Source: a bacterium (GTDB lineage: Bacteria > Sysuimicrobiota > Sysuimicrobiia > Sysuimicrobiales > Segetimicrobiaceae). From it: 34,609 nt of DNA. The stretch is from positions 1 through 34,609 of the forward strand of contig DASSJF010000060.1 in assembly GCA_035691305.1 (NCBI GenBank). Reading direction: 5' to 3'. Both the position numbers and the translations under genes were made by a program. Under the pieces are notes generated by a model, which saw only the letters and a program-made list of their open reading frames with translations, searched no databases and was not told the origin of the DNA. Shown piece by piece: positions 5,256 to 33,339 of this stretch. Every line of letters begins with the position of its first letter. Position 1 is the stretch's first letter.

Positions 5256-5324
5256 CTACCGCAGGATCAGATGGCCGGTCGCTGCTAGAATAATCGCGCC
5301 CATCAGCAGGAGGAATACCAGCAT
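5256..5324 (-). CDS. 22-residue hydrophobic micropeptide, copy A
   Basis: This tiny gene encodes a 22-residue peptide starting MLVFLLL and ending ILAATGHLILR, then TAG. It would form a single short membrane helix with a lone His and a C-terminal Arg. Three lines support real coding. First, AAGGGGGTG, an excellent Shine-Dalgarno sequence, lies six bases before the ATG and overlaps the TAA of the preceding 70-aa gene, as in a translationally coupled operon. Second, a second copy at 21742-21804 shares the C-terminal block with ten of eleven residues identical. Third, within those eleven codons the two copies differ by seven synonymous changes and only one amino-acid change (Leu/Met), the pattern of selection on the peptide. 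I know no named family that fits; a membrane regulator or toxin-like peptide are only guesses. Confidence 0.75.
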   Translation of the reverse strand: MLVFLLLMGAIILAATGHLILR

Positions 5325-5336
5325 CGCGTCACCCCC

Positions 5337-5549
5337 TTAGTTTGAAGTTTTCTTGGTCTGCTCACGCGCCCATCGCGCTTGAGCGGCCTTCCGGGCGATA
5401 GCCTTCCGACGTGCCGGAGAAAGTCTCTCGGCCCGAACCCGACCACCGCGCGGGCCTCCGATCTTGCCGCCGATCGGACCGCCCTTGAGCCCCCCGAGCC
5501 GGCCGAGGATGGCCGCCGCCTCGCTGATTACTTTCCGGTCCGTCGCCAT
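5337..5549 (-). CDS. Small basic Gly-rich protein (KGG-like)
   Basis: This 70-residue, strongly basic protein has a Gly-rich middle (LGGLKGGPIGGKIGGPRGG) reminiscent of KGG-repeat stress proteins, and a C-terminal helix with SPARRKAIARKAAQARW. Short proteins ending in similar AAQARW helices are widespread in bacteria and are usually annotated as hypothetical. A nucleic-acid-binding role is plausible from charge alone but not shown. A -35/-10 promoter lies immediately upstream, so the message is probably leaderless or nearly so. The stop codon overlaps the ribosome binding site of the 22-aa micropeptide, so the two genes form one operon. Confidence 0.8.
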   Translation of the reverse strand: MATDRKVISEAAAILGRLGGLKGGPIGGKIGGPRGGRVRAERLSPARRKAIARKAAQARWAREQTKKTSN

Positions 5550-5556
5550 ACCTTAC

Positions 5557-5586
5557 AGAATAGATGAGGGCGGTCCTGGCTGTCAA
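5557..5586 (-). promoter_or_regulatory. Promoter of the KGG-like/micropeptide operon
   Basis: Reading the minus strand, a perfect -35 TTGACA (5586-5581) is separated by 18 bases from a -10 TATTCT (5562-5557). The ATG at 5549 follows seven bases after the -10 box, where transcription would be expected to begin, so the mRNA is likely leaderless. TTGACA is conspicuous in such GC-rich DNA. Confidence 0.65.
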
Positions 5587-12354: not shown

Positions 12355-12621
12355 TCAGCGAGCCTTCGTAACCGCGGACGCCCTGGGCGACGTGACAAAG
12401 GCGATGATGCCCAGTCCCAACACCGGATACGCCCAGACGACCGCCCAGAAATCAATCGTGAGCACCTTCACGAACGCGCGGGTCACGACGTTGTCCATAT
12501 CCGCGGCCGCCGACAGCCCGGCGATCAGCGCGACGGCGCAGACGAGCGACCACGCGATGATGACGTTCTTCGCCGCCTCGCACATTTCGCGCTTCTGGAG
12601 CGACTTCAACCAGCCGGCCAT
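12355..12621 (-). CDS. Small two-helix membrane protein
   Basis: The 88-residue protein starts MAGWLKSLQKREMCEAAKN and contains two hydrophobic helices: about residues 19-40 (VIIAWSLVCAVALIAGLSA) and about 55-78 (IDFWAVVWAYPVLGLGIIAFV). The connecting loop contains ADMDNVVTR and the short tail is basic. No family is recognised. The ATG at 12621 is preceded by GGGGGAAGAGG, an excellent ribosome binding site directly against the start. A longer reading frame exists upstream but would bury this site. The gene stands alone and converges on DUF6717 across the 15-bp inverted repeat. A role in membrane stress or as an accessory subunit is possible but unsupported. Confidence 0.75.
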   Translation of the reverse strand: MAGWLKSLQKREMCEAAKNVIIAWSLVCAVALIAGLSAAADMDNVVTRAFVKVLTIDFWAVVWAYPVLGLGIIAFVTSPRASAVTKAR

Positions 12622-12922
12622 CCTCTTCCCCCTTTCGTGCCGTCGCGACCAAAGCCCCGGGGCCCCCCGATTCGGGCAGTAAACGACGGGGCCCGGCGTC
12701 GACGACGCACTGTATTCTGTATACCCCGCCGCGCCCCGCGTCAGACGCCACCCAGGCCGCGAGAGGGCAAGACGTAGCACCTGCCGCGGCGAAATGAACC
12801 GCCGCCGGAACGCCGAGGCGGGCACGGGAGGGACGTAGTCCGCGATCGGCGCGACTTTCCGGCGCGCTCCACCCGCCGGTGATCGACGGCGACCGCCGAC
12901 GGAGCGAGGGGAGGGCCGGGCG
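12622..12922 (+). other. Divergent intergenic region upstream of the beta-oxidation genes
   Basis: No gene is visible in these 301 bases, which must carry divergent promoters for the small membrane protein and the acyl-CoA ligase. The one AT-rich spot is TGTATTCTGTATAC (12711-12724); on the minus strand it gives a possible -10 TATACA about 100 bases before the small-protein start. No FadR-like operator could be recognised with confidence. Confidence 0.4.
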
Positions 12923-21621: not shown

Positions 21622-21741
21622 CGCGTCACCCTCTCGCTCGACGCCCGCCGATCGGCTCCGCGTTTGGCGTTTGGTCCGTTTCTTGTCAGGGAAAATAATA
21701 TGGCGTCACACGATAGGGCATTGAGAGGGGGTGGATAGAGC

Positions 21742-21804
21742 ATGATATTCCTGCTCCTCGGTCTGCTCATCCTGGCCGCGACCGGTCACATGATTCTGCG
21801 CTGA
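21742..21804 (+). CDS. 20-residue hydrophobic micropeptide, copy B
   Basis: A 20-residue gene encoding a peptide that begins MIFLLLG and ends ILAATGHMILR, then TGA. It is clearly related to the 22-residue peptide on the minus strand at 5256-5324. They share FLLL, the Gly, and the C-terminal block of eleven residues with one Leu/Met exchange. AGGGGGTGG (21726-21734) gives a strong ribosome binding site seven bases upstream, and the GGGGGTG core is also conserved in copy A. Both peptides place a His-containing TGH motif near one end of a single membrane helix. The gene stands alone between the Gfo/Idh gene and a small secreted protein. A possible -10 AATAAT lies at 21694-21699. Function unknown. 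Confidence 0.75.
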   Translation: MIFLLLGLLILAATGHMILR

Positions 21805-32556: not shown

Positions 32557-32640
32557 TCCGCGTCCGGGCGTCGTGTTTGCCCTCCGCCCCCCAGGGAAGA
32601 ATATCCCTGAGCCTGTTATCCCGGATGGAGAGGTGGATCC

Positions 32641-33063
32641 GTGGCCTCGAACCGAGCCATTGCCGCGCCGTTGACGGACGTGCTCTACATGATGGCGGAA
32701 GAGGGCGCCGATGAAGAGACCAGTGATCTGACCGAAGACACGTGGGCCGGCCTCATGCGCGACGGCGCGGATGTCGCCCGCCGGGTCGAAGAGGAGATCG
32801 ACACCGGCGGCGTGACCGTGCCCCGCGAAAACGTCGATCCCGACGATCTGAACGCGATCCGCGCCGCGGCCGGGGTTATCGTGACGCGCGACCATCGGCG
32901 GGGACGCGTGAACGCGGAGACGTACCCGAACGAAAGCGAGCTGCTCGTGGCGTGGACCGCCATCGTAACGGAACTCGCGCCCGGCTCGCCGGAGGCCGAG
33001 GAGACCGAAATCGACGGCTCGGCGGGACGGTCGTCGTCCGGCCGGCGGTCTACTGGACGGTAG
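32641..33063 (+). CDS. Acidic protein of unknown function
   Basis: I do not recognise this 140-residue protein. It is strongly acidic over residues 18-70 (EEGADEETSDLTEDTW ... DVARRVEEEIDTGG), with no membrane segment or signal peptide, and ends in a Ser/Gly/Arg tail. A central predicted helix (DDLNAIRAAAGVIVTRDHRRG) and LLVAWTAIVTEL look folded. The GTG start at 32641 follows GAGAGGTGG. The stop is followed within six bases by the GlsB-like gene, whose ribosome binding site overlaps it, so the two are cotranscribed and may share a stress role by association. Confidence 0.7.
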   Translation: MASNRAIAAPLTDVLYMMAEEGADEETSDLTEDTWAGLMRDGADVARRVEEEIDTGGVTVPRENVDPDDLNAIRAAAGVIVTRDHRRGRVNAETYPNESELLVAWTAIVTELAPGSPEAEETEIDGSAGRSSSGRRSTGR

Positions 33064-33069
33064 GGGTAA

Positions 33070-33339
33070 ATGAGTATTCTTGCCTGGGTTGTCGTCGGCA
33101 TCATCGCCGGCTGGCTCGCGAAGATGGTCGTGCCCGGAGAAGGGCCGGGGGGGCTCCTCGGCGATCTTCTGATCGGCGTGGTCGGCGCCGTCGTCGGCGG
33201 CTGGATCTTCCGCTCGTTGGGACACGCGGGCGTGACGGGCCTCAACATCTGGTCGATCGTCGTCGCGGCGATCGGCGCGATCGTGCTGCTCTGGATCCTG
33301 CGGATGTTCACGGGCAAGCGTCCGGTCCGCACGCTGTAG
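33070..33339 (+). CDS. GlsB/YeaQ/YmgE family small membrane protein
   Basis: This 89-residue protein belongs to the transglycosylase-associated/GlsB family, small stress-related membrane proteins of unknown mechanism. The family pattern MSILAWVVVGIIAGWLAKMVVPGEGPGGLLGDLLIGVVGAVVGGWIF is complete, giving helices at about residues 3-20, 30-48 and 57-77. GEGPGG between helix one and two is the family hallmark. It follows the acidic unknown protein by six bases and is followed by a weak hairpin. Confidence 0.95.
   Translation: MSILAWVVVGIIAGWLAKMVVPGEGPGGLLGDLLIGVVGAVVGGWIFRSLGHAGVTGLNIWSIVVAAIGAIVLLWILRMFTGKRPVRTL

Follow-up and report, generated by a model that had tools for sequence, protein, structure and literature searches.

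Bacterial membrane micropeptides with regulatory or accessory roles, such as MgtS, AcrZ, CydX and KdpF, use a single short helix to tune a larger membrane protein; each usually has one gene, in many cases adjacent to that of its partner. A further type is represented by Escherichia coli YohP, a 27-residue peptide that lies mainly with its N-terminus outside and its C-terminus inside (N-out/C-in), dimerises via Gly15 within the segment IGLLVVTGV, and under stress brings about a fall in membrane potential (PMC7549839, PMC12719787). The DNA considered here, termed the window, is a stretch of 34,609 nucleotides (contig DASSJF010000060.1, C60 of a 3.58-Mb genome) from the Segetimicrobiaceae, the most abundant soil family of the phylum Sysuimicrobiota, also called CSP1-3 (PMC11604079). 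It carries two micropeptide genes, at 21742-21804 (+) and 5256-5324 (-), whose products belong to a real and apparently undescribed family of 20-23-residue membrane peptides in these uncultured bacteria. In common with MgtS, AcrZ, CydX and KdpF, each member would form one short helix; the family differs in having 3-12 copies per genome and no common neighbour. YohP (PF25659) is also a stress-associated single helix of fewer than 30 residues, with a mid-helix glycine, a TG and a charge near the C-terminal end, but is encoded by a single gene rather than by dispersed paralogues, lacks the TGH-ILR end described below, and has a different regulator; it is an analogue, not a homologue. We consider that the peptides are probably lineage-specific, single-helix micropeptides of a sigma-B-type general stress response, acting through this shared TGH-ILR end.

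The gene at 21742-21804 encodes 20 residues (MIFLLLGLLILAATGHMILR), from an ATG start to a TGA stop, and that at 5256-5324 encodes 22 (MLVFLLLMGAIILAATGHLILR), from ATG to TAG; both were read directly, as the original prediction had described. Its count for the eleven-codon block ILAATGH-x-ILR was exact: seven codons differ synonymously, one exchanges Leu for Met, and three are identical. The relatedness of the two peptides is not due to chance, since the 5256 peptide, used as a query, recovered the 21742 copy (E = 0.002) along with four further copies in the same genome, six places in total. Compared with its orthologues from two genomes of the same genus (L053, L062), the 21742 copy shows seven synonymous changes and 0-1 amino acid changes. 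The GGGGGTG core noted previously before both genes is present, within the Shine-Dalgarno regions GAGGGGGTGG at 21725-21734 (+) and AAGGGGGTGACGCG at 5325-5338 (-), but not at the spacing of 6-7 nucleotides (nt) originally given: it lies 8 nt 5' of the ATG in the former (21727-21733) and 5 nt in the latter (5336-5330), where the region overlaps the stop-codon end of the upstream gene. Nor is GGGGG a family-wide trait of the ribosome site, the family Shine-Dalgarno sequence being GGAGGT, which is perfect in 30 of 61 members and in 20 of 208 control genes.

These 61 full reads, together with two copies of MWAAVLLLGGLVLWATGHRLLR (in genomes G007 and G008) and four more divergent members, such as MLLALLLLGAGLLILTGHMIVR, bring the family to about 67 genes, dispersed over loci on both strands. 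Members are 20-23 residues long, nearly all hydrophobic, and end in ATGH[L/M]I[L/V][R/Q/H] followed by a stop; their predicted starts, as chosen by script, are ATG in 44, GTG in 16 and TTG in one. A 14-row profile identified members in all 12 Segetimicrobiaceae genomes, at 3-12 matches per genome and E-values down to about 1e-10, and none in 31 other Sysuimicrobiota genomes. Extended to 30 rows and 386 genomes, the profile returned the same twelve and nothing convincing in the 374 others, the sole extra match being marginal and partial (E 0.006, residues 2-16, inside a 605-residue frame) and left uncounted. A larger contig collection, scanned with one strict peptide pattern, yielded only VBAO01000119.1, labelled 'Terrabacteria group bacterium ANGP1' and now Candidatus Segetimicrobium, from the same bacterial family. 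The genomes are draft assemblies, with genes around the peptides called by a simple in-house caller; an eighth, truncated match in the window's own genome (G000), at the end of contig C40, reads the same as the copy at the start of C82, and is probably an assembly duplicate.

The proposal of a dispersed family that had escaped description is thus borne out: the related genomes hold many homologues with synonymous-biased variation and a ribosome site before each, no copy with a broken frame was seen, and no matching family was found in Pfam or NCBIfam, nor any match among solved structures. The accompanying suggestion that annotation pipelines would overlook such genes is plausible. The NCBIfam family MgtR gave E = 0.086 and 12.8 bits against one member, its cut-off being 35, which amounts to no match. 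A Pfam match to bombesin (WATGHLI against WAVGHLM, E 0.02-0.07, below cut-off) was taken as coincidence.

Selection acts on the peptide and not on the DNA, as had been argued from the two window copies alone. Changes between orthologous pairs number 27, 2 and 102 at codon positions 1, 2 and 3, respectively, over 394 codons, and with second positions fixed and third positions free the family is not a DNA repeat. Eighteen orthologue comparisons, not all of them independent, contain 105 synonymous and 17 residue-changing codons, and the ratio of non-synonymous to synonymous polymorphism (pN/pS) is 0.42 in frame, compared with 1.19 and 1.92 in the other two frames. Identity between orthologues is 0.89 across the gene and 0.82 in the preceding 20 nt, falling to 0.63 in the interval -70 to -150 and to 0.65 downstream of the gene; the background from aligning unrelated sequence is about 0.51. 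The T and G of TGH are invariant in 61 of 61 members, each being encoded by all four of its codons, and the H in 60, an invariance partly built in by a member filter that demanded the G and restricted the neighbouring letters; profile matches recovered outside this filter likewise keep TGH. On this codon evidence, the coding status of the micropeptide genes is close to certain.

The most informative feature of the family, overlooked in the original prediction, is a sigma-B-type promoter. An expectation-maximisation search of upstream DNA produced a two-box motif, GTTTG-N15/16-GGGTAAAA, usually 27-70 nt 5' of the start and with a posterior above 0.9 at about 40 of the 61 copies; one start of the search was seeded by a pattern spotted by eye, but a run begun at random converged on almost the same result. 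An independent, simple pattern, GTTT-N14-18-GGG[AT]A, precedes 24 of 61 peptides and 2 of 208 control genes, against 0.29 expected in shuffles. In a held-out test, a matrix built from the ten context-I synteny sites only was matched at 25 of the 51 other members and at 10 of 208 controls (p = 3e-13), nearly all of the matches at held-out members lying 27-70 nt from the start. At the 21742 copy, the promoter CGTTTG-N15-GGGAAAATA occupies 21668-21697 (+), 44 nt 5' of the ATG, and is the window's best match at 22.1 bits. The motif agrees with the Bacillus subtilis SigB consensus, GTTTAA-N15(+/-2)-GGGTAT (PMC9847131).

A candidate regulator accompanies the peptides throughout. A SigB/F/G-type sigma factor (TIGR02980) occurs in all 12 genomes, 11 of them over the curated cut-off, the twelfth being in a 64%-complete genome. 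In the window's genome, sigB is directly preceded by a gene for an RsbW-like protein, identified through Pfam as HATPase_c_2 (PF13581), before which lie YtxH and a DUF948-like gene; the order DUF948/YtxH/RsbW-like/sigB recurs in nine other genomes (with a similar open reading frame), while in G003 and G004 the stretch examined contains the RsbW-like end only. The family motif is present in this first sigB operon in G000, G001, G002 and G011, upstream of each of the high-scoring second sigB paralogues found in five genomes (G003, G004, G005, G006 and G011; loci L118, L119, L120, L117 and L116), before CsbD in G006, and before DUF5670-CsbD in G005. In G006 the second sigB itself adjoins CsbD and DUF5670 genes. 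A spore sigma factor (SigF/G) is unlikely to be the regulator, since no Spo0A scored over the curated cut-off in the 12 genomes. Among 31 genomes from other families of the phylum, eight have SigB but not the peptides, so the peptides seem to have been added to a regulator that predates them.

The Bacillus sigma-B regulon accordingly offers a close parallel, sharing the promoter GTTT-N14-17-GGGTA, the RsbW-like/SigB gene order, and, in several genomes, the motif before sigB and CsbD. It differs in that PMC9847131, in the parts consulted, mentions no peptide family of this kind, and in that the Segetimicrobiaceae Transgly_assoc genes mostly lack the motif. Regulation of the peptides by a sigma-B-type promoter is well supported at the level of sequence, and because most copies share a promoter of the same stress-response type, the cell may deploy its dispersed copies together under stress.

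The term membrane peptide is based on hydropathy: at 20-23 residues and a mean grand average of hydropathy (GRAVY) of 1.95, the members have the make-up of a hydrophobic helix of membrane-spanning length, and insertion is predicted. Charge within the first 12 residues occurs in only 6 of 61, and the last residue is R in 50, H in 5, and the uncharged Q in 6. In the mechanism that we favour, stress would lead an RsbW-like kinase to release SigB, which would switch on many dispersed copies together, each unit comprising a sigma-B-type promoter, a strong Shine-Dalgarno sequence, 20-23 codons and a stop. Each peptide would then insert into the membrane as a single helix, probably N-out/C-in, given that in most members the final residue carries the sole charge; T-G-H would lie close to the cytoplasmic side, with I-L/V-R/Q/H after it. 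As this polar T-G-H is invariant in every paralogue, one specific contact common to all copies is suggested. The partner would most likely be a membrane protein or a second copy of the peptide, and through this contact membrane function might be adjusted during stress.

Several observations weigh against this scheme. Around 20 of the 61 copies have no clear motif, the 5256 copy among them, which has a sigma-70-like promoter instead. The motif also occurs elsewhere, since only three of the 11 occurrences of the strict pattern in five genomes are at peptides, and the first sigB operon shows it in no more than the four genomes named above. Transgly_assoc, the family to which we take the SigB-controlled ywzA to belong, failed as an independent promoter control, with the motif directly upstream of 1 of 17 homologues, so this regulon cannot simply be equated with the Bacillus one. 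Finally, conservation along the peptide shows no signal of helical periodicity, and an interaction face is therefore not demonstrated.

The alternative that survives best, which we regard as possible though distinctly less likely, is that the peptides behave in the manner of YohP or TisB, with copies forming dimers or oligomers through their glycines and lowering the membrane potential to bring about a quiescent, stress-tolerant state, the copy number setting the dose. Size, the single hydrophobic helix, the C-terminal charge and the stress-type promoter all match E. coli YohP, with which members also share the mid-helix Gly and the TG. TisB- and Hok-type peptides, however, are variable and carry several charges each. 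Homology to YohP was rejected by a shuffle test against the family profile, in which YohP scored -1.3 bits, below most of its own shuffles (1880 of 3000 scored as high), and none of the seven members searched matched the Pfam YohP family. A nonspecific depolarising peptide would have no need of the invariant T-G-H, and for that reason a specific membrane-protein partner is somewhat more likely than nonspecific depolarisation.

It is improbable that the peptides are type I toxins, each silenced by an antisense RNA, a notion encouraged by the Ibs/Sib and Ldr families, which likewise comprise short hydrophobic peptides in several intergenic copies. Orthologues retain the peptide, whereas identity in the DNA around it declines towards background, and a shared activating promoter with a strong Shine-Dalgarno sequence is the opposite of tight repression. 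Moreover, although no systematic search for antisense promoters was made, the window contains no such Rfam family at gathering score, nothing relevant appears at E <= 1 around the 21742 copy, and no family matches were found in plasmids, phages or viral contigs.

Less probable again is a secreted signalling-peptide precursor, from which a C-terminal ATGH-ILR would be released and sensed, even though streptococcal SHP precursors are similar in size to these 20-23-residue peptides and a conserved C-terminal end does follow a hydrophobic stretch. An N-terminal positive charge is missing, the heterogeneous neighbours include no recurrent regulator, and all paralogues in all genomes have the same end, unlike pheromones, which diversify. 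That the genes encode a leader peptide or attenuator acting on the gene that follows, or are a spreading DNA repeat that is open by chance, is refuted for most copies and scarcely credible for the rest: the next gene downstream is on the same strand in 32 of 60 cases, but is convergent in the other 28 and lies on the same strand within 100 nt in only nine, neighbours differ between copies, and the pattern of fixed second and free third codon positions rules out that DNA or RNA conservation is responsible.

Returning to the proposed stress-regulated peptides that would act through the TGH-ILR end, we judge it an even call whether they make up a stress battery, its scattered single-gene units, all controlled by a single alternative sigma factor, supplying the same membrane-acting peptide. 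If so, we know of few conserved multigene families whose proteins are as small. Multicopy families of paralogues are unusual among genuine proteins of this length, and the present one shows that coherent gene families can exist at lengths shorter than annotation usually admits. The link to a sigma-B-type promoter makes an anonymous peptide a testable stress effector and a functional handle on the uncultured Segetimicrobiaceae, and the motif can be used to map the remainder of the regulon.

In terms of genomic arrangement, two old synteny groups each extend over about ten of the twelve genomes, and the other copies are lineage-specific. The first group, in 10 of 12 genomes, lies near gene cluster c5, and before c15 in most; the second, in about ten, lies between c6 and c8, with two tandem copies in four genomes. 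Tandem pairs of micropeptide genes at L064, L068, L072 and L081 are about 200-260 nt apart, with the sigma-B-type motif only at the second of each. The genes surrounding the copies are heterogeneous, with metabolic and housekeeping functions, and beyond orthology nothing recurs among them that would indicate a partner or operon logic. Hairpins downstream of the genes exceed those of control intergenic DNA in strength (median -24.8 versus -19.4 kcal/mol, p = 2e-7) but are without T-runs, and hence favour single-gene transcription units weakly; small independent transcription units are the best explanation for most copies.

The 5256 copy is arranged differently. Directly upstream is a gene for a 70-residue Arg/Gly-rich protein (MATDRKVISEAAAILGRLGGLKGGPIGG...; 5337-5549, -) of no Pfam family, which is probably co-transcribed with the micropeptide, and this two-gene unit is preceded by the sigma-70-like promoter TTGACA-N18-TATTCT at 5557-5586 (-). 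The ATG of the 70-residue gene sits 7 nt past the -10 box, which suggests a leaderless transcript.

Elsewhere in the window, a second strong motif match, TGTTTG-N14-GGGAAGAAT (32574-32602, +; 17.5 bits), stands before a gene pair that may be a fellow regulon member, judging from this match: 32641-33063 (+) encodes 140 residues of no Pfam family, and 33070-33339 (+) a Transgly_assoc protein (PF04226). A third match, CGTCTG-N15-GGGTATACA at 12718-12747 (-), scores 16.2 bits and lies about 97 nt before the gene for an 88-residue hydrophobic protein of no Pfam family (12355-12621, -). At locus L144 (from 1501, +), the same motif precedes a small hydrophobic protein of 49 residues (MPFWLTWFFTGLFVAGG...), also of no Pfam family, hinting that other small membrane proteins may be part of the same regulon.
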